From NCBI RefSeq assembly GCF_039525035.1, contig NZ_BAAAHE010000026.1, positions 62,001-126,000 on the forward strand: a stretch of 64,000 nt of DNA. Direction: 5' to 3'. Each line of letters begins with the position of its first letter. Position 1 is the stretch's first letter. This document shows positions 52,907 through 64,000 of this stretch, piece after piece. Below the pieces are notes generated by a model. That model saw nothing but the letters and a program-made list of their open reading frames with translations. It was not told the DNA's origin and ran no database searches. A program made the position numbers and the translations under genes. This stretch comes from Sporichthya brevicatena. Lineage in GTDB: Bacteria > Actinomycetota > Actinomycetes > Sporichthyales > Sporichthyaceae.

Positions 52907-53956
52907 GTGCGGGACCATGACCGGGTGCGAACGAAAGCCTCTGCCCTCGCGGCCCTGCTGACGGCCGGCCTGGTGCTGACCGCCTGCGCCGACGACGCCG
53001 ACTCCGATTCCGACGCCCGCACCCCGGCCGGCTCGACGACCGCGTCGGCCGCTCCGACGGCGAGCGCGCGCCCGACCCCCGACGCCGCGCAGCTCGCGAC
53101 CCTCGGGGTCAACGAGCTCGGCGCGATCCCGGTCTTCATGTACCACCAGCTCGTCGAGAAGCCCCGCCGCATCTACGACATGAGCCCGGCCGCGTTCCGG
53201 GAACAGCTGCAGACGCTGTACGACGCGGGCTACCGCCCGATCACCGCAGCTGCCCTCGCAGCGGGGGAGATCGACCTGCCCGCGGGTCGGCACCCGGTGG
53301 TGCTCACCTTCGACGACTCCACCTGGGACCAGGCCCGGCTGCTGCCCGACGGCACGATCGACCCGAAGTCCGCGGCGGGCATCCTCGAGGCCTTCGAGCG
53401 GGAGCACCCCGACTTCCGCGCCACTGCCACGTTCTTCGTCAACTCCACCCCGGAACCGTTCACGGACCGCCGGGTGCTGACCTGGCTCGCCGAGAACGGC
53501 TACGAGATCGCCGCCCACACGTGGTCGCACGCGGACCTCGGCAAGCTCGACGACGCCGGCGTGCAGGCCGAGATCGGCCGCGACGTCGCGTGGCTGGAGG
53601 AGGCCGTGCCCGGCCTGACGGTCCGGACGCTCGCGGTGCCCTTCGGCGTGCACCCCCGCAACCGCGAGCTGCTCCGCGCCGGCACTTTCGAGGGCGTGCC
53701 CTACCGGCTCGAGGCGGTGTTCGGGGTCTCGGAGATCGCGTCGCCGTCGCCGTACTCGCTCCGCTTCGACCTCTTCGACATCCCGCGCCTCGACACCGGC
53801 CTCGGCGTGCGCGACGCCCAGGACGCCCTCGAGCGCCTCGCCGCGGACCCGACCCTGCGCTACACCTCCGACGGGGACCCGGAACGGATCACCTTCCCCG
53901 CCGACCGCGCCGACCGACTGAACCCGGACTTCGCCGACCGCGCCCAGCCGTACTGA
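52907..53956 (+). CDS. Polysaccharide deacetylase-family lipoprotein
   Basis: 349 residues. A lipoprotein signal RTKASALAALLTAGLVLTAC ends in the lipobox Cys, then a 50-residue Ser/Thr/Ala/Pro-rich linker leads to a NodB domain. Motif 1 is VVLTFDDSTWDQ (catalytic base and metal Asp) and motif 2 AAHTWSHADL (metal His pair). It should deacetylate an N-acetylated sugar polymer on the outer membrane face; FMYHQLVEKPRR is the typical entry of such extracellular enzymes. GTG at 52907 is used; GTG at 52925 gives a cleaner signal peptide. The stop codon is inside the first unit of the 12-bp minisatellite. Confidence 0.87.
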   Translation: MRDHDRVRTKASALAALLTAGLVLTACADDADSDSDARTPAGSTTASAAPTASARPTPDAAQLATLGVNELGAIPVFMYHQLVEKPRRIYDMSPAAFREQLQTLYDAGYRPITAAALAAGEIDLPAGRHPVVLTFDDSTWDQARLLPDGTIDPKSAAGILEAFEREHPDFRATATFFVNSTPEPFTDRRVLTWLAENGYEIAAHTWSHADLGKLDDAGVQAEIGRDVAWLEEAVPGLTVRTLAVPFGVHPRNRELLRAGTFEGVPYRLEAVFGVSEIASPSPYSLRFDLFDIPRLDTGLGVRDAQDALERLAADPTLRYTSDGDPERITFPADRADRLNPDFADRAQPY

Positions 53957-54060
53957 CCGCCGTCCTGACCGCCGTCCTGACCGCCGTCCTGACCGCCGTC
54001 CTGACCGCCGTCCTGACCGCCGTCCTGACCGCCGTCCTGACCGCCGTCCTGACCGCCGCC
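53953..54060. repeat. 12-bp minisatellite, nine units, spanning a stop codon
   Basis: The unit CTGACCGCCGTC is repeated eight times without change (53953-54048); a ninth copy ends GCC (54049-54060). The first unit contains the TGA stop of the deacetylase gene, so each unit carries the same TGA in that frame. It lies just before a double hairpin (54071-54124). Copy number is likely to vary between strains by slippage; since stop codons recur in every unit, the protein would not change. Confidence 0.9.
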
Positions 54061-54070
54061 TCTCTCGTCC

Positions 54071-55103: not shown

Positions 55104-56066
55104 TCAGGAACCCCGCACCACGTCCACGTGGATGTGGTCGAGGTGACGCAACGTCACATTGGTCGTGTTGCCCGACGGGTGCACGTAGGGGTGCCAGCCG
55201 AGGTGTGAATTGGTGTTCGACCACACCTGGTCGTCGAAGATCAGCGTGGCGATCTGGTAGTAGTCCGCGTTCGCGACGAGCCAGTGCGCGAGCAGCCAGC
55301 CCCGGGCCTTGTTGTCCGGGTCGTCGAGGCTGAAGAAGATGTCGACCGCACGGCCGTCGTAGTGCGCCGAGTTCTCGATGTGGCCGCTGGACACCCCGCC
55401 CGGCGCGAAGCCCCCGATGGGCCGGCCGCCGTACGCCTCGGCCCAGCCGCGGATCAGCGCGAGCGAACGCATCGTGAGGCCGGTCGTCGTCATCGGCTGC
55501 GCGGGCATGTAGCGCTGCGGCGTCACGCAGGTCAGGGCGTGCGGGCGGAACAACGCGTAGACGGCGTCGAGGGAGGTCGTGCGCGGCGCCGGGTCCTTGC
55601 GCTTGCGCTTGATCTCCTCGACGGCCTGGTCGGGCCGGAGCGGGACCCGGCCCTCCTTCTGCAGCGAGCGGTCGAAGGCGCGCGCGGCCCGGACGTAGTT
55701 GCGTCCGTCGCGGTAGGCCACGGCGGTCAGCATGGTGAGCGTCCGCGCCGCGGTCATGTCGATCTCCCAGACCCCGTAGCCGAGGTCCAGGCGGCACTCC
55801 GCGTCCTTGGTGGTCGGGGCGGGGACGACCCGCGGGCCCTTGGTCCGCACCGCCGAGCGGGTCGCGATCGGGCGGTCGCGGCCGGACATGTCGAGCAGGC
55901 TGTTCGACCCGGCGGGCGCCGCGGGAGCCGCCTGCGTGGCGGACCCGTCACTGCGCGTGGCCTGCACGGTGACAGCGCCGGCCGCCAGCAGGATCGCGGC
56001 GAGGCCGACGCCGAGGAACCGGTTTGCGGCCTGGCCGGGCGGGCGGTGCTTGCTCATCCCCACCAT
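55104..56066 (-). CDS. Exported M15-like zinc peptidase-fold protein
   Basis: 320 residues. One hydrophobic helix (residues about 18-37) acts as signal or anchor. The second half carries SAHYDGRAVD near residue 232, which fits the M15 zinc motif S-x-H-x-x-G-x-A-x-D exactly, and the C-terminal LDHIHVDVVRG that would supply the last metal His. M15 enzymes cut D-Ala bonds in peptidoglycan, so a wall-peptide hydrolase is likely; the exact bond is not predicted. A conserved paired segment ARGWLLAHWLVANADYYQIA follows the metal motif. ATG at 56066 or 56057. The next gene upstream is a paralogue with the motif destroyed. Confidence 0.72.
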   Translation of the reverse strand: MVGMSKHRPPGQAANRFLGVGLAAILLAAGAVTVQATRSDGSATQAAPAAPAGSNSLLDMSGRDRPIATRSAVRTKGPRVVPAPTTKDAECRLDLGYGVWEIDMTAARTLTMLTAVAYRDGRNYVRAARAFDRSLQKEGRVPLRPDQAVEEIKRKRKDPAPRTTSLDAVYALFRPHALTCVTPQRYMPAQPMTTTGLTMRSLALIRGWAEAYGGRPIGGFAPGGVSSGHIENSAHYDGRAVDIFFSLDDPDNKARGWLLAHWLVANADYYQIATLIFDDQVWSNTNSHLGWHPYVHPSGNTTNVTLRHLDHIHVDVVRGS

Positions 56067-56138: not shown

Positions 56139-57104
56139 TCAGGACTTCTTGCTCTTGCTCGACTTCTTGGTCGAATCGGACTTCTTGGCGTCCTTGGCGG
56201 ACGAGCCGGCCACGACCGAGACGAACAGGCGACCCGGCCGCGCCGGCGAGGCGGCGGTGGCGGGGTCCGGCGTCCGCCAGCCGGCGGTCGGGGCCCAGAT
56301 CAAATCGCCGTAGGCGATGGTGTCGAGCTTGTAGTCGGCGCCCCGGGCGGTCAGCCAGTGCGCCACGACCCAGCCCGCGTTGGCCTCGGGCGACGTCACC
56401 GGCGACGAGACGGGGGAGGCGACCGGGGAAATCGTGTCGGGGACCGTCACGCTGAGCGCGCGTCCCGCCGCGCCGGCCGGGTTGTCCTTGGCCTTGGGCC
56501 CGAAGGTGCTCATGGTCAGCTTGCCGAAGGCGTCGACGATCCCCTGGCGCATGACGTCGGCCCGCGGGGTGAGCCCCGACCTGCCGCGACTCTCCTCCGA
56601 CGCCACGGGCGCGGCGAACGCGCACGTGAGGCCGCCCGGCTCGGCCAGGGCCCGCAGCTTGGCGACCGACGCCGCGGTCGGCGCCGCGGAGTCCTCACGG
56701 GTGAACAGGTCGAGGGCCTCCGTGACCGACGGCGACTTGCCCGGCTTGCCGGCGGCGACGTCGAGGACCCGGGCGACCATCTCCTCCGGCGCCTTGACCT
56801 GCCAGCCGACGGCGGCGATCTGGGTCAGCGTGCGGGCGTCCGCGAGCGTGGTCGCCAGCGGCTTGCCGTCGACGCGGAGGAAGCACGTGTTCACCGGCGG
56901 CGTGCTGATCGGGTCGGACGCCGACATCGCCTGCACGACGCCCTTGTCCGGGCCGTCGGTGGTGGAGGAGGAATTCCCACCCCCGAGGGTCACCACGGCG
57001 GTCAGGGCCGCCACGCCGACGCAGACGCCCACCAGGGGCACGACGGGCCCGCCGCGCAGCGACAGGCGTGAGCCCGCCCGTGGGCTCCGCTCTCGTGCCG
57101 CCAT
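56139..57104 (-). CDS. Exported paralogue of the M15-like protein, metal motif lost
   Basis: 321 residues. The ATG at 57104 has GAGGAG upstream, and one membrane helix follows (residues about 24-45). Shared landmarks with the downstream gene are ARTLTQIAAVGWQVKAPEEM (front), MRQGIVDAFGKL (middle) and NAGWVVAHWLTARGADYKLD (back). At the place of SAHYDGRAVD it reads AGAAGRALS, so zinc His and Asp are replaced, and the C-terminal HIH is replaced by a Lys/Ser-rich tail (KKSDSTKKSSKSKK). It probably has no catalytic activity and may bind a wall ligand or regulate its neighbour. The two genes are 72 bp apart on one strand. Confidence 0.7.
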   Translation of the reverse strand: MAARERSPRAGSRLSLRGGPVVPLVGVCVGVAALTAVVTLGGGNSSSTTDGPDKGVVQAMSASDPISTPPVNTCFLRVDGKPLATTLADARTLTQIAAVGWQVKAPEEMVARVLDVAAGKPGKSPSVTEALDLFTREDSAAPTAASVAKLRALAEPGGLTCAFAAPVASEESRGRSGLTPRADVMRQGIVDAFGKLTMSTFGPKAKDNPAGAAGRALSVTVPDTISPVASPVSSPVTSPEANAGWVVAHWLTARGADYKLDTIAYGDLIWAPTAGWRTPDPATAASPARPGRLFVSVVAGSSAKDAKKSDSTKKSSKSKKS

Positions 57105-57393
57105 CGCGTTCTCCTCGACGTACTGCGCCAGGTTCGGCGCACTGACAGGTACAGAGTGCGGTGTAACCGGTCGCCGTGTCCGCACGCTGAGAAATCGTTG
57201 GTCCGATCAGGCGACGAGAAACCGTACAAAACCGGACGAGGTGGTCCACGCCACCTCGGCGCCCCCGAGCACCCCGGTTTGAAGTCGGCCGCGGCGGGGA
57301 ATCCCCACCGGCTGCTCTCGTGCCCGCCTTGCTCCGTTCTTCCGTTCCCACCCCGGGGCCGACCCGACGTCGTCGTGGAGTCGGCCGGCTGCC

Positions 57394-59253
57394 TCACGAC
57401 GCCGCGGCAGCCTCCGCTCCAAGGTACGTGGCGATGACCGTGGGGTCGGACAGCACCTCGTCCGGCGGACCCTGCGCGACCACGCGCCCGGACTCCAGGG
57501 CGATGATCCGGTCGCAGGTCCGCCGCAGCAGCCCGACGTCGTGCTCGACGATCACCAGGGCCCCGCCGGTGGCCTCCCGGATGCGCTTCATCAGGGGCCC
57601 CATCAGCTCGGCCTCGGCCCGCGCCAGGCCGGCCGCCGGCTCGTCCAGCAGGAGCACGTCGGGCTCCTGGGCGAGCAGACAACCGAACTCCACGAGGCGG
57701 CGGGAACCGGTCGAGAGCTCACTGGCGAACCGGTCCTGGAAGACCCCGAGCCCGAGCAGCGTGATGATGCGGTCGACCCGCTCGGCGACGTCGATCTCCG
57801 AGAGCAGCGAGGCCGGCAGGCGCAGCGCGGCCGCCAGGGGCTCCCGGGAGGTCACCCAGCGTTCGCAGGACACCGCGATGGTCTCGGTGACCGTGAGGCC
57901 CGGGAAGAGCTTCGCGTCCTGGAACGAGCGGCCCAGGCCCAGGTGCGCCCGCGCCTGCGGGGTCAGGTCCGTGACGTCGCTGCCGTTGAAGTACACCCGA
58001 CCCGTGTCCGGGACCAGGAACCCCGACATCGCGTCGAGGATCGTGGTCTTGCCCGCGCCGTTCGGGCCCATCAGGCCGACGATCTCGCCGGCGCAGATGT
58101 CGATGTCCACCCCGGCGATCGCCGCGACGCCGCCGAAGGTCTTCCGCAGGTTCCGGGTCGCGATCGCCACCTTCGGCGTCGGGGCCGCGTCCGCGGCCGC
58201 GTCGAGCGCCTCCACGATGTCGGCGAGGTCCTCGTCCTCGTCCTCGCCGGTGGACACCGGCCGCTCGGGCCGGTCCCGCACGATCCGCGGCAGTTCCCCG
58301 GTCTCGTCGTCGACCTCGTCCGCGTCGGTCCGGGCGCCGGTGACGTTCACCGGCCGGGCCCCGCCGTCCGCACTGGAGATGTCATCTTCAGTGCTGGGGT
58401 CGGCGGGGGAGTCGTCGAGGTGGCGGCGGGCCTCGTGGACCGCCTCGGGGTCGATCTCGGGAACCTCGAGCCCGTCGATGTGCGGGAGCTTCTCGTCGGC
58501 CTGCTCGAGAGCACCGGCGAGGAACACCGAGCGGATCAGGTCGCCGCGGTCGAGGATCTCCTGGGCCGGGCCGGAGAAGCGGACCTCGCCCTTCTCCAGG
58601 AACATCGCGCGGTCGGAGACCTTGAGCACGAGCTCGGCGGACTGCTCGACGAGCAGGATGCCCAGGCCCTCGTCGCGCAGGTGGCGGACGACGTCGAGGA
58701 GCTCGCTGACGATCGCCGGGGCGAGGCCGAGGGAGAGCTCGTCGATCAGCAGCACCCGCGCGCCGGGCTTGCCGTCCGTGCCCGCCGGCCCCTGCACGAG
58801 CGCCTGCGCGAGCGCGAGCATCTGCTGCTGGCCGCCGGAGAGCAGACCGGCGCGGTCCTCCATGCGGGTCGTCAGTGCAGGGAACAGCTCGATCGCGCGG
58901 CCGACGGCGGCGGCGCAGTAGTCCTTGTCCTTGCGCGTGACCCAGGTGGCCATGCGCAGGTTCTCCGCGACCGACAGGTCCGGGAAGATGCCCCGGCCGC
59001 CGGGCATGTAGGCGAGGCCGAGCCGCGCCATCTTCATCGGCGACCAGCCGGTGGTGTCCTTGCCGTCGAAGCGGACCTTGCCGTGGCGGGGCGGGGTCAG
59101 GCCGGAGATCGCCCGCAGCAGCGTGGACTTGCCGGCGCCGTTGGTCCCGAGCAGGCCGAGGACCTCGCCGGCGTCCACGCGGACGTCGACCCCGTGGAGC
59201 ACCTTGTTGCGGCCGTACGAGACCTGCAGGCCCGTGCACTCGAGAAGGCTCAT
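57394..59253 (-). CDS. Fused branched-chain-amino-acid-type ABC ATPase (LivF-LivG in one chain)
   Basis: 619 residues with two complete nucleotide-binding domains. The first (residues 1-245) is LivF-like: Walker A GTNGAGKST, signature LLSGGQQQMLALAQAL, Walker B LLIDELSLGLAP. An acidic linker of about 110 residues (DEVDDETGE, STGEDEDED) leads to a LivG-like domain (365-619): Walker A GPNGAGKTT near residue 395, Q-loop GRSFQDAKLFPG, signature STGSRRLVEFGCLLAQ, Walker B VLLLDEPAAGL. The second signature is STGSRR instead of SGGQ, common in LivG. ATG at 59253 overlaps the permease stop (4 bp). In most bacteria livF and livG are separate genes. Substrate not known. Confidence 0.9.
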   Translation of the reverse strand: MSLLECTGLQVSYGRNKVLHGVDVRVDAGEVLGLLGTNGAGKSTLLRAISGLTPPRHGKVRFDGKDTTGWSPMKMARLGLAYMPGGRGIFPDLSVAENLRMATWVTRKDKDYCAAAVGRAIELFPALTTRMEDRAGLLSGGQQQMLALAQALVQGPAGTDGKPGARVLLIDELSLGLAPAIVSELLDVVRHLRDEGLGILLVEQSAELVLKVSDRAMFLEKGEVRFSGPAQEILDRGDLIRSVFLAGALEQADEKLPHIDGLEVPEIDPEAVHEARRHLDDSPADPSTEDDISSADGGARPVNVTGARTDADEVDDETGELPRIVRDRPERPVSTGEDEDEDLADIVEALDAAADAAPTPKVAIATRNLRKTFGGVAAIAGVDIDICAGEIVGLMGPNGAGKTTILDAMSGFLVPDTGRVYFNGSDVTDLTPQARAHLGLGRSFQDAKLFPGLTVTETIAVSCERWVTSREPLAAALRLPASLLSEIDVAERVDRIITLLGLGVFQDRFASELSTGSRRLVEFGCLLAQEPDVLLLDEPAAGLARAEAELMGPLMKRIREATGGALVIVEHDVGLLRRTCDRIIALESGRVVAQGPPDEVLSDPTVIATYLGAEAAAAS

Positions 59254-61442
59254 CCCGCACCTGCCGGTCGCTGGGTCGGCCGCGGGCCGGGCCCCTCCTC
59301 GGGCACGGCCAGCGGGTCGGGGCCGGCGGCGGACAGGCGCCCGCCGATGGACGCCAGGTCGACGTCGGTCGCGCCGGTCTCCCCTCCGGGACCGGCGAGA
59401 GTGATGCCGCGCATCCGCGCGACGGTGCGGAACCAGAACCCGCGCGCGGAGATGACCACGCGGGCCAGACCGCCGGGCAGGACGAGCAGGACGAACAGCA
59501 CGCCCGCGCCGGTGACGAACAGCTGCATGCCGCCGGAGAGGTTGTACTTCGCGACGGCGAGGAAGATCGCGCCGAGCAGGGCGCCGGTCACCGACGTCGC
59601 GCCGCCGAGCACGACCATCGTGAACGCCTCGAAGGAGATCGCGGGGGAGTACGTACCCGCCCGGACGCCGTCGAGCGCGATGACGTGCATCGAGCCGGCC
59701 AGCCCGGCGAGCGCGCCGCTGACGGCGAAGGCCGCGAGCTTGATCTTCGTCGGGCTCAGGCCACGGGCGGCCGCCGCACGCTCGTTGTCGCGCACCGCGA
59801 TCATCGCCCGGCCGGTGCGGCTGTGCCGGATGCCGTGCACGAGCACGAGCGCCAGGGCCAGCACCGTCAGGCAGAACCAGTAGAGCGTCTTCTCGTTGTA
59901 GAGGTCGAAGCGCTCGAGGACCAGCGGCCGGTCGACCTGCGTCGGGATGGCCTCGGGGAAGTTCGCCGGGTTCAGGAAGAACGTCGAGAGCGGCACCGCG
60001 AACGCGAGCGTGGTGACGCCGAGGAACAGACCCCGGATCCGCAGGGCGGGGATGCCGATCGCGACGGCCGTCAGCATGCCGGCGCCCATGCCCGCGAGCA
60101 TGGCGATCAGCAGGTCCGCCCCGGTCTTCGCGACGAGGTCACCGGCGACCACGGCACCGACACCGGCGATCGCGAACTGGCCGAGGCTGATCTGCCCGGC
60201 CCAGCCGGTGAGGACGACGAGCGAGACCGCGACCAGACCGTAGATCACCGTCACGGTGCCGAGCAGACTGATCTGACTGGGGCTCAGCTGGTACGGAAGC
60301 GCGATGGCGGCCGCGATGACACCGGCGAGCAGCAGACGCCGCCCCCAGATGATCTCCGGCAGGTGCCGGATCTCCTTCGGCACCGGCGGCATCTCGTCGG
60401 CGGTGTTCCAGCCCGCGGTGTTCGCGTCCGCGGCGCGGGTGAGCTGGTGACGCTGCAGCAGCAGCGCGATGAGGACCGCGACGAGCAGGAAGACGTCGAC
60501 GTAGCTCGAGCGTGACGTGTTCCAGAACACCGCCTGTTGGAAGACACCGACGCCGATGCCGGCGAACACGGCACCCGGGAGGCTCTCCATGCGCGCGATG
60601 ACCGCGGCCGCGAGGGCGGGCAGCAGGAGCGCCGGGCCGCCGGCGATCTCACCACCTTGACCGACGAGCGGGGCCGAGAGCATTGCCGCGAGGGCGGAGA
60701 GCGCGCCGGCCAGCGCCCAGACCAGCGTCGAGAGGCGGCGCACCGGAATGCCGAGCAGCATCGCGCGCTCGGCGTTCGACGAGGTGGCGCGGATGCCGAC
60801 ACCGACCGCGGAGTTGCGCAGGAAGAACGCGAACAGGGCCAGGACGATCGGCACCGTCACGAGGATCATCACGTGCGCGCCGGTGAAGACCAGGCCCTCG
60901 AAGGTGAACTTGATGTCGAGCGGCGTACGGAACGACCCCTGCAGGCCGCCGAAGCCGCCCCCGGACCCGACGATGCTCGGCACCGCGAACTGCAGCGCCG
61001 CCAGGATCTGTGCGAGACCGATGGTGGCGACGGTCAGGATCAGGCGCGGGGCCCAGAACAGGCGCTGCACCACGAGCCGGTCGCACAGCGCGCCGATCAC
61101 CGCCGCGACCACGAGGCCCACGCCGAGGGCCACGTAGTAGTTCCACCCCTTGACGAGGAAGAGCTGGACGGCGAGGAACGACGCCGCCGACCCCAGCGCG
61201 GCCTGCGCGAAGTTGATGATCCGCGACGACCGGTAGACCAGCACCAGCCCGAGGGCGGACAGGCCGGTCAGCGACCCGAGGACCACGCCCTGCAGCACGA
61301 CGCCCAGAGGGAGGCCGGACGGGAGGACGGCGTTCAGCACCACCCAGACCAGCGGGGCGGCGGCCACCATCGCGACCGCGCGCTTGCGCTTGTCGGCCAG
61401 TGCGGCGGGCACGGCGGCAGGAACGGCGGGCAGCGGGCTCAC
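59250..61442 (-). CDS. Fused branched-chain-amino-acid-type ABC permease (LivH-LivM in one chain)
   Basis: 730 residues, about 18 membrane helices. The LivH half (40-330) has LVYRSSRIINFAQAALGSAA and the later RNSAVGVGIRATSSNAERAM coupling loop. After a short hydrophilic bridge (AADANTAGWNTADEMPPVP, about 345) the LivM half (365-670) has GQISLGQFAIAGVGAVVAG, LRIRGLFLGVTTLAFAVPL and GRAMIAVRDNERAAAARGLS. The two halves would form the transmembrane pore without a second subunit. GTG at 61442 with no clear ribosome site; 34 bp after the binding protein. C-terminal tail is Pro/Gly-rich. Confidence 0.9.
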   Translation of the reverse strand: MSPLPAVPAAVPAALADKRKRAVAMVAAAPLVWVVLNAVLPSGLPLGVVLQGVVLGSLTGLSALGLVLVYRSSRIINFAQAALGSAASFLAVQLFLVKGWNYYVALGVGLVVAAVIGALCDRLVVQRLFWAPRLILTVATIGLAQILAALQFAVPSIVGSGGGFGGLQGSFRTPLDIKFTFEGLVFTGAHVMILVTVPIVLALFAFFLRNSAVGVGIRATSSNAERAMLLGIPVRRLSTLVWALAGALSALAAMLSAPLVGQGGEIAGGPALLLPALAAAVIARMESLPGAVFAGIGVGVFQQAVFWNTSRSSYVDVFLLVAVLIALLLQRHQLTRAADANTAGWNTADEMPPVPKEIRHLPEIIWGRRLLLAGVIAAAIALPYQLSPSQISLLGTVTVIYGLVAVSLVVLTGWAGQISLGQFAIAGVGAVVAGDLVAKTGADLLIAMLAGMGAGMLTAVAIGIPALRIRGLFLGVTTLAFAVPLSTFFLNPANFPEAIPTQVDRPLVLERFDLYNEKTLYWFCLTVLALALVLVHGIRHSRTGRAMIAVRDNERAAAARGLSPTKIKLAAFAVSGALAGLAGSMHVIALDGVRAGTYSPAISFEAFTMVVLGGATSVTGALLGAIFLAVAKYNLSGGMQLFVTGAGVLFVLLVLPGGLARVVISARGFWFRTVARMRGITLAGPGGETGATDVDLASIGGRLSAAGPDPLAVPEEGPGPRPTQRPAGAG

Positions 61443-61476
61443 CCTTCGACTCGGCTTCCGGGATCCGACCGGGCCG

Positions 61477-63222
61477 CTACGGCGCCACGGCCGGCGGTGT
61501 CGGCATGGTCACCCGCGCCGGCCAACTCGCCCCGACGTAGCGCCTGCCGCCGTTGAGGGGCACGCACCGGCCGGGCCGGTTGTTGAACGGCGAGAGTGCC
61601 TTCGGGTCGTAGTAGAACTCCCGGGCGTCGTCGGTACTGGTGAAGTCGTTCGGGCCGAAGCTCCACTGGCCGTAGTCGCCGGTCCGTTTGCCGTAGCTGA
61701 ACATGCCCTGGGCGAACGTCGCGGGGGTCAGGTTCGGCCCGGCCTGCTGCAGACCGATGAACAGCATCATCAGCGTCTGGTAGGTCAGGTCGACCAGCGA
61801 GGTCGGCTTGCCGTTCTTCATCGTGGCGAAGGCCTTGTACGCCTCGGTGTTCTTGCCACCGCCGAAGCCGGTGAGGTAGCTCTGCCCGAGCGCGAACTGC
61901 CACTGGTCACTGTCGTAGAACTGACCGGCGACGTCGGCGTCGGTGCCGATGGTCCCGGAGACGAACCACTCCGGGTAGAAGTCCTGCTGCGTCGCCGAAC
62001 CCGTGAGGAAGAACGGCAGCAGCGGGTCGGTGACGAGCACCAGCGTCGTGACCCCGGCCGCCTTGAGCTGCGCGGCCATGTTCGGCGCCTCCTGCTGCAG
62101 CTTGGCGAACTGCAGCGCGTAGCGGATCTCCTTCGCGAAGGAGATGCCCGCCGCCTTCAGCTTCGGGCGCGCCTCGTTGATGCACTGGGAGTAGACGGCG
62201 TCGTCCGGGAAGATCAGGCCGTACTTGCGCGGCTTCTGCCGCAGGCTCGCGCTGCCCGCGCGGGTCGCGTTCTCGTTCGCCGGCAGGCGCTTGGCGATCA
62301 GGTCGACGGCGGAGTTCATCAGCGTCGTGCAGTCGACCAGCTGGCCCCAGGCGAACGGCGCGCGCTGGCGGTAGTAGCTCTGCGGCATGTGCAGGCCGCC
62401 GATGGCGAGGACCTTCTGCCGCACGAGCGCGTCCATGTACGGCTGCGTCAGTGCGGAGATGTCGGCGAAGGCCTTGATCTCCTGCGCCACCTTGACCGCG
62501 TCGGCGTTCGCACCCTCCTGGCCGCCGCCGGCGATCTCGGCCTGGCCGTCGCCGCGCCCGGTGTACCGGACCAGCTTCACCTTGCGGCCGTAGAGCTCGT
62601 AGTTCTTGTTGAAGTAGTCGACGAGGGTATCCAGCTCGCGCTTGCGGTCGGCGGGGCTGGCGGAGATGCCGGCCTCCTCGGCCTTCTTCTCCAGCTCGCT
62701 GTCCTTGTCGTCCTCCTGCTCACGCTGGTCGGACGCACTGCTCTCGCGGATGGCGATCGTGATCGTGTCCGCGGTGACGCCGCGGTAGGTCGCCCCACCG
62801 TTGTCACCGGTGAAGTGCACGCAGGCGGGGGAGTAGGCGCTCCCGGCGACCTGCAGGGCGCCGCCCGCACAGTCGGCGGCGGGCACGACGCCCTGGGCGC
62901 GCGGTGCACTGCCGGCCTGCGCGCTGGTCACGACCTTGCCGCCCTTGCCGGGCTTCGCACCCGGCGCGGCGGCCGTGGTGCCCGTCGCGGCGGCCGTCGT
63001 CCCCGGGGCACCGGCGACGACGGGCGCACCGGCCGCGTCGACGCCCATCCCCCCGAGCTCCGGGCTGGTCGCGGCGTACGGGTCCGGGCCCGCCACGGCG
63101 AGCTCGTTCGTGTCGCCCGGGGCCTTGCTGGGCACGGTGACCGTGACGATGAGCAGGACCGCGATGACGCCGGCCAGCGGGCCGTAGCCCGACAGGATCA
63201 GCCGGTTCGGCCGGGGCTTCAT
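61477..63222 (-). CDS. Membrane-anchored periplasmic-type binding protein of the fused ABC system
   Basis: 581 residues, much longer than a typical 370-residue Leu/Ile/Val-binding protein. A hydrophobic helix (residues 12-31) is not followed by a lipobox, so it is probably a transmembrane anchor. A low-complexity Ala/Gly/Thr-rich stretch (about 65-105, with AGAPGTTAAATGTTAAAP) leads to the ligand-binding domain from residue 145 (VTADTITIAIRESSASDQRE). Signatures of the Peripla_BP_6 class include KYGLIFPDDAVYSQCINEAR and QQEAPNMAAQLKAAGVTTLV. ATG overlaps the stop of the upstream gene (ATGA). It is expected to deliver ligand to the LivHM fusion; ligand unknown. Confidence 0.83.
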   Translation of the reverse strand: MKPRPNRLILSGYGPLAGVIAVLLIVTVTVPSKAPGDTNELAVAGPDPYAATSPELGGMGVDAAGAPVVAGAPGTTAAATGTTAAAPGAKPGKGGKVVTSAQAGSAPRAQGVVPAADCAGGALQVAGSAYSPACVHFTGDNGGATYRGVTADTITIAIRESSASDQREQEDDKDSELEKKAEEAGISASPADRKRELDTLVDYFNKNYELYGRKVKLVRYTGRGDGQAEIAGGGQEGANADAVKVAQEIKAFADISALTQPYMDALVRQKVLAIGGLHMPQSYYRQRAPFAWGQLVDCTTLMNSAVDLIAKRLPANENATRAGSASLRQKPRKYGLIFPDDAVYSQCINEARPKLKAAGISFAKEIRYALQFAKLQQEAPNMAAQLKAAGVTTLVLVTDPLLPFFLTGSATQQDFYPEWFVSGTIGTDADVAGQFYDSDQWQFALGQSYLTGFGGGKNTEAYKAFATMKNGKPTSLVDLTYQTLMMLFIGLQQAGPNLTPATFAQGMFSYGKRTGDYGQWSFGPNDFTSTDDAREFYYDPKALSPFNNRPGRCVPLNGGRRYVGASWPARVTMPTPPAVAP

Positions 63223-64000
63223 CGCGCGCTCGCGGCCATCCGCAGCCGATCGCCGAGCGCCAGCACGACGACGGCGGCGAGTCCCAGCGCGAGGGCGAGG
63301 ACGGCGAGGCCGTTGTTCGTGTCCCCGGAGGATCCGAGGGCGGCGTTCTGGGTGGCGGGCGACTGTGCGGGGACCAGGTTGGTGTCGGCCGGGACGTCAC
63401 TGGCGGGGACGTCACCGATGCCGGCGGAGACGGAGTCGACGGCCGGGGCGGACCCGGTCGAGCTGGGGACGACCGAGTTCGTGGACGGCAGCAGCGGGGC
63501 GATCGCGTTCGTCGCGGCGTCGAGGCCGTCCTCGAGCTCGACCAGCGCGGAGCGGGCGCTCACGCCGCCGATCTCGAGGCGACCGCCGCTGCGACCGCCG
63601 GCCCCGCCCACGAGGGCGTTGGCGACGATCTGGGCGGCCGCGGCGTCCGGGTTGGCGGCGATGACCGCCTCCATCAGCTGGGTGACCACCGGCGCGAGGG
63701 CGGCCGAGGCCTGGTTCGTCGGCTCGACGAGGGCCTCGGGGTTGCGGATCTGCAGGACGAGCGGGGCGACGGAGCCGCCGCCGGCGTCGGCGAGGTTGGT
63801 CGGGGCGTCGAGCACGAGGCCGAGCGGGGCCAGCTGCTGGTTGGCCTGGGCGAGGCTCGCGGCGAGCTCGGCGGGACTGTCGACCGGCAGGCTCTGACCC
63901 GCGACGGTCAGGGAGCCGATCGAGAAGCCCGAGGTGGCGCTCGCCTTGTTCTTCTGGTCGGCGACCCACCGCAGTCCGGTGAGGACGACCTGCCCGGCGC
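63219..64000 (-). CDS. Exported, C-terminally anchored protein of unknown function (5' end outside window)
   Basis: At least 260 residues; the frame is open to the right edge of the window. The visible part has a beta-rich segment (FSIGSLTVAGQSLPVD), a Gly-rich stretch (LVGGAGGRSGGRLEIGGVSA), a Ser/Thr/Pro/Ala-rich region, and one C-terminal membrane helix (LAVLALALGLAAVVVLALGD) followed by a basic tail RLRMAASAR. That fits a protein held on the outer face by its C-terminal anchor, without an LPXTG sortase site. It overlaps the binding protein by 4 bp, so it is the preceding gene of the same operon and probably part of the transporter. No named family recognised. Confidence 0.72.
   Translation of the reverse strand, partial: AGQVVLTGLRWVADQKNKASATSGFSIGSLTVAGQSLPVDSPAELAASLAQANQQLAPLGLVLDAPTNLADAGGGSVAPLVLQIRNPEALVEPTNQASAALAPVVTQLMEAVIAANPDAAAAQIVANALVGGAGGRSGGRLEIGGVSARSALVELEDGLDAATNAIAPLLPSTNSVVPSSTGSAPAVDSVSAGIGDVPASDVPADTNLVPAQSPATQNAALGSSGDTNNGLAVLALALGLAAVVVLALGDRLRMAASAR

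Follow-up and report, generated by a model that had tools for sequence, protein, structure and literature searches.

A fused Liv-type ABC importer operon of Sporichthya brevicatena and a family of membrane-anchored proteins encoded beside such operons

Liv-type ABC importers are among the best-studied importers, and a binding protein with two permeases and two ATPases is considered to make up the whole system. The HAAT importers (LivJ/K-LivHMGF and UrtABCDE) are like the operon described here in their type I binding protein, LivH/LivM-type permeases and LivF/LivG-type ATPases, whereas this operon differs from them in having its permeases and ATPases fused pairwise (in relatives, all four are in one chain), in the signature LSTG(S/T)RR of its G half, in a very divergent binding protein that has no Pfam match of its own, and in an extra anchored companion. 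The HmuTUV and znu transporters are not of the HAAT type. HtaA/ChtA, which work with HmuTUV in Corynebacterium diphtheriae, and ZnuE/ZnuF, which work with the znu ABC transporter, are exported, ligand-binding importer helpers anchored by a C-terminal helix (PMC12494546, PMC12445094). These helpers, whose ligands are hemin and zinc, are the closest working analogues of the companion, being actinobacterial and C-terminally anchored like it; the likeness is drawn at the level of function.

The DNA analysed here (the window) is a stretch of 64,000 nucleotides on contig C26 of the genome of the host, a soil/water actinobacterium; this genome comprises 5.2 Mb in 89 contigs. A minus-strand operon in the window contains four open reading frames, which encode the partner, the binding protein, LivH-LivM and LivF-LivG. 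The features are as follows, the first of them lying beyond the window:

C26:126674-130122 (L009:14674-18122), opposite strand to the operon: MarR-type regulator and MmpL transporter, between two binding-protein genes
63219..64000, minus strand: anchored partner, of which the C-terminal 259 of 474 aa are inside the window
61477..63222, minus strand: substrate-binding protein, 581 aa, with N-terminal membrane helix, disordered linker and type I PBP fold
59250..61442, minus strand: fused permease LivH-LivM, 730 aa, with matches to Pfam and curated families
~60423-61322, minus strand: LivH-like half
~59433-60317, minus strand: LivM-like half
57394..59253, minus strand: fused ATPase LivF-LivG, 619 aa, with asymmetric ATP-site motifs
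~58504-59253, minus strand: LivF-like half
~57409-58167, minus strand: LivG-like half

The operon is translationally coupled, and two of its junctions, partner/binding protein and LivHM/LivFG, are 4-bp ATGA overlaps. The LivH-LivM chain contains two BPD_transp_2 stretches (Pfam PF02653, E 7e-59) and matches the curated families UrtB, UrtC, LivH and LivM, while the LivF-LivG chain contains two ABC_tran domains (Pfam, E 8e-57) and a BCA_ABC_TP_C tail, with UrtE as its curated match above cut-off (307 bits), UrtD and LivG next, below their cut-offs, and LivF also among the matches. From these sequences the operon is identified as encoding a putative binding-protein-dependent ABC importer of HAAT (Liv/Urt) type (TC 3.A.1.4), for which an amino acid, an amide, or an aromatic or acyl-type small molecule is the candidate substrate; the genes around the operon gave no pointer to the substrate, and an Rfam scan of the 64-kb window gave no match. 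The earlier note had described a coupled branched-chain-type importer operon with the two ATPases joined in one chain, the two permeases in another, and an anchored partner. The open reading frames, at the coordinates it gave, the ATGA overlaps and the domain matches agree with this description, each half of either fusion matching its own family in Pfam; the transmembrane anchor that it assigned to the binding protein and the 4-bp overlap with the partner at 63219-63222 were both seen as well.

Two exported/anchored proteins (55104-56066 and 56139-57185) are encoded downstream of LivFG on the same strand, keep this position in related genomes and have no Pfam match. The former contains the pattern HYDGRAVDI...HIHVDV, which we take to recall M15-type peptidases. 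In addition, a short tandem repeat (~53956-54070) lies between two genes of the window, with VLTA units in one frame and SGRR in another.

In some 60 fused relatives, LSGGQ/E is conserved in the F half, where glutamine takes the place of the switch histidine (VEQS); the G half retains this histidine, but its signature reads LSTG(S/T)RR rather than LSGGQ. Nearly all of these relatives share the two deviations, which thus represent a family trait rather than decay. The other Liv systems of the host genome also contain the F-half glutamine, and their G half mostly contains LSTGQRR. One of the two composite ATP sites is predicted to be canonical and its counterpart to be degenerate, the degeneracy being greater in the window lineage than elsewhere among the Liv systems of the host; we infer that the two sites would be functionally asymmetric. 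Each fusion had been said to keep the full motifs of both halves; this needs correcting, as VEQS in the F half and the altered signature in the G half indicate.

A search of the host genome with the fused permease gave 50 matches, the majority of which cover both halves in a single frame. The genome contains about 44 Liv-type transporter loci, mostly with fused LivHM, and the LivHM fusion occurs in about 35 operons. The paralogous operon at C8:117123-124149 encodes a partner, a binding protein and one 1,264-aa chain comprising LivH, LivM, LivF and LivG, and a four-domain chain of the same kind (1,267 aa) is open in the related genome G001, a single 5.5-Mb contig. For a wider survey, loci were fetched with the binding-protein profile from Acidimicrobiia, Nitriliruptoria and other Actinomycetota; 43 of the 63 scored actinomycetotal operons encode the four domains in one chain of ~1,200-1,450 aa; the window operon belongs to the split (HM + FG) type. 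These 43 single-chain and 20 split rows were placed on a quick tree of the permease part (SH-aLRT support only), on which the architecture switches at least 6 times, indicating that fusion is a labile trait. That faulty annotation or assembly has made fusions out of an ordinary four-gene Liv system is vanishingly improbable, as the fused frames are open in G001, in G002-G004 and in many further genomes and nothing was found in favour of such an error; the assembly artefact, which the earlier note had named as a refutation, is thereby ruled out. The fixed 1:1 domain order without free subunit mixing is plausible from the anatomy of the chains. The fusions can no longer be regarded as a special feature of this locus, given their frequency among the host operons and the fully fused chain at C8 and in many relatives. 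A search of mainly open literature gave no relevant paper on fused or single-chain Liv systems and nothing on the gene architecture of Rhodococcus PatDABC. The single-chain LivH-M-F-G relatives would provide a handy one-gene construct for structural study of this importer class.

The predicted structure of the binding protein (pLDDT 80) has the type I periplasmic-binding-protein fold, and its best fold matches are Liv-type (LivJ-type) and aromatic-acid-binding proteins (Foldseek E 3e-15). Residues 29-109, which are modelled with low confidence, are probably disordered. No lipobox was seen in this protein, Pfam and NCBIfam gave no significant match to it, and a sequence search of the PDB gave no match, while 5 of 15 relatives match Pfam Peripla_BP_6. 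In the sister genus (loci L054 and L056), the gene order is binding protein, partner, LivHM and LivFG. In Sporichthya, the MarR regulator and the MmpL transporter separate the upstream binding protein (C26:130059-131804) from the partner, and a second binding protein lies between the partner and the permease; the upstream protein is 69% and 66% identical to the L054 and L056 copies, respectively, and 60% identical to the window copy. In a genome of the same genus (G002), the partner locus has no MmpL gene and the window-type binding protein is a 101-aa C-terminal remnant (L053:10953-11258), with the upstream paralogue intact. Both binding proteins of the window host may serve the one importer. 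The C terminus of the MmpL transporter contains a possible carboxypeptidase-regulatory/Ig-like domain. Turning back to binding-protein genes: Two such genes in tandem, or one of them with a fragment of another, also precede a single importer in other Actinomycetota (L083:5142-8715 and L076:5168-7167).

The partner, to which the earlier note gave too little weight, is a more surprising part of the operon than the fusions. Its gene runs ~643 bp past the window edge to a likely start at C26:126643, and the full protein comprises a signal sequence, a beta-rich exported domain, an Ala/Pro/Gly-rich linker, one C-terminal membrane helix and a basic tail, so that the export and C-terminal anchoring attributed to it at first reading are corroborated. 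The structure model, made on a 79%-identical Sporichthya homologue in L072, is beta-rich with an overall pLDDT of 66 and is confident in the core only; a fold search against the PDB gave weak outer-membrane-barrel rows (Z <= 5.6, TM-score <= 0.25, Foldseek E >= 0.007), which are within background. The partner was rejected as a second binding protein, as a profile comparison of its companion homologues (described below) with the binding-protein alignment gave no similarity (0.6% probability) and the model is beta-rich, and also as a member of a described family, as it has no significant match in Pfam or the NCBI families.

Neither the partner nor its 10 aligned homologues match the choice-of-anchor P model (NF040603) at E<=1. 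In profile-profile comparison, the partner aligns with choice-of-anchor P at 86.8% (E 4e-6) directly and at 95-97% via intermediates encoded beside Liv genes, and with the bridging Liv-adjacent set at 97.1% (E 5e-11). Two of the intermediates score above the curated choice-of-anchor P cut-off. The partner and choice-of-anchor P proteins are therefore likely, as judged from these profiles, to form a related superfamily, alike in distant beta-domain similarity, export and a C-terminal anchor, and membership of the partner in NF040603 is not claimed. The sampled typical members of choice-of-anchor P are not beside Liv genes, unlike the window partner. A search of mainly open literature gave no paper naming this family, and novelty is judged here from the lack of a curated family and of an open paper.

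Among 396 genomes across the phylum, the partner profile gave seven strong matches, all seven of which lie directly upstream of the family binding protein. The loci fetched with the binding-protein profile contain the partner in the same place through most of one clade, with apparent absences at L092, L097 and L103 inside it, and no partner was detectable in a sister clade of similar, mostly single-chain importers. Weak matches in other lineages (L172 and L174-L176) are exported, C-terminally anchored proteins beside more ordinary Liv operons, and are the intermediates in the profile comparisons above. Another match, L173, was discarded, as the profile seems to have hit by chance the C-terminal membrane helix of a hydrolase-like protein with no relation to the partner.

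In 40 stretches around the Liv loci of the host genome, a 400-550-aa exported, C-terminally anchored protein, here termed the companion, is encoded beside nearly every fused-LivHM operon, either upstream of LivHM or directly after LivF. These companions are homologous to one another, with 20-38% identity to one reference, and at profile level to the partner (96.9%, E 1.8e-10). A companion profile, whose seeds were picked beside Liv genes, was searched against the whole host genome without that restriction and gave 33 matches at E<=0.001, every one of them next to a Liv locus and none elsewhere. Together with the 2 partners, these make 35 proteins paired 1:1 with 35 distinct Liv loci, on the same strand and 0.1-1.9 kb off. 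Other genomes of the family encode 14-26 companions each (adjacency sampled); of 40 companions sampled from three related species, 39 have a Liv gene no more than 1.8 kb away, 33 of these on the same strand, and the remaining one is near a contig end. Both the phylum search and the whole-genome search thus place the homologues beside transporters; the opposite outcome, homologues mainly away from them, is what the earlier note had named as a refutation. Nine host Liv loci, mostly with separate LivH and LivM genes, have no companion, and none was detectable in the sister lineage, which indicates that these importers can run their core transport cycle without it.

Small membrane proteins with two helices, singly or in pairs, are also encoded just upstream of LivHM in about 23 host Liv operons of the companion type. 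These 36 sequences (e.g. L250:6633-7405, L263:8557-9386 and L272:8722-9725) form one similarity cluster, and one type contains the conserved pattern QWDR...LPYxxSGG...ADLRDEWREL; they gave no Pfam match over cut-off and were not found in the window operon.

Across 28 paralogous operons of the host genome, the distances of companion and permease are correlated with r = 0.92 (0/2000 shuffles), and as all these operons lie within one genome, there is no species tree to confound the correlation. For 22 operons every part could be identified, and there the correlations of 0.90 for companion-HM and 0.875 for companion-SBP are on a par with 0.868 for HM-SBP, while those of LivF are lower (0.53-0.66; HM-LivF 0.66); in the partner clade of the window they are 0.849 for PAR-SBP, 0.798 for PAR-HM and 0.836 for HM-SBP. 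The companion thus moves and diverges together with the recognition/translocation part of the importer. Since operons duplicate as units, the tree correlation represents shared history and is no proof of contact. Linkage and interaction are inseparable by such correlation alone, and the wider choice-of-anchor P family lies mostly away from Liv genes, both of which would suit a companion that is an unrelated surface protein, one that became linked to the operons and was duplicated along with them; this explanation is nevertheless improbable, as 33 of 33 host homologues are beside Liv loci, both gene orders are found, and other lineages show the same linkage in distantly related Liv operons. A sensor or regulator would be expected to pair as strictly and to co-diverge as well; in such a role the anchored companion, instead of aiding capture, would signal whether the binding protein is loaded or would hold transport back, for example as a brake or an input to signalling. 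A single membrane helix with a short basic tail, and no cytoplasmic signalling domain in any alignment, make this improbable.

The main rival, which is rather unlikely, is a structural tether, where the companion would be a cell-wall/membrane spacer that sets the height and place of the binding protein for docking to the permease. Its C-terminal membrane helix, long disordered linker and lack of a clear ligand-binding fold would fit such a spacer, as would the binding protein being likewise on a long linker and the co-divergence of the companion with permease and binding protein, but the strong divergence among the companion paralogues goes beyond the apparent need of a generic spacer, and other host Liv importers work without one. 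The preferred reading, with the chances about evenly balanced, is that the partner would be a genuine extracytoplasmic subunit of the importer, acting as a co-receptor or docking factor. This role is assigned by analogy with HtaA/ChtA and ZnuE/ZnuF, as the partner model, confident in its core only, has no reliable known fold. In such an importer, the membrane helix and linker of the partner would keep its beta-domain close to the permease, where this domain would present ligand to the tethered binding protein or bring that protein into position; the binding protein, held by its N-terminal helix and linker, would then deliver the ligand to LivHM in the usual ATP-driven cycle. The fused chains would fix the pairing of subunits; with about 44 related transporters in the same cell, this would be of consequence, as subunits might otherwise be exchanged among them.

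It is possible, at somewhat less than an even chance, that in Sporichthyaceae, and in some further Actinomycetota, Liv-type importers contain an unrecognised extracytoplasmic subunit from a diverse family of membrane-tethered beta-domain co-receptors, of which one genome encodes 35 paralogues, each serving a transporter of its own, and that many of these importers, together with the conserved two-helix proteins, are five- to seven-part machines. If this is true, a dedicated, co-diverging anchored companion at 35 importers of one genome would be a component so far overlooked in a common bacterial phylum, and the 35 companions provide a ready set of paralogues for finding its role.
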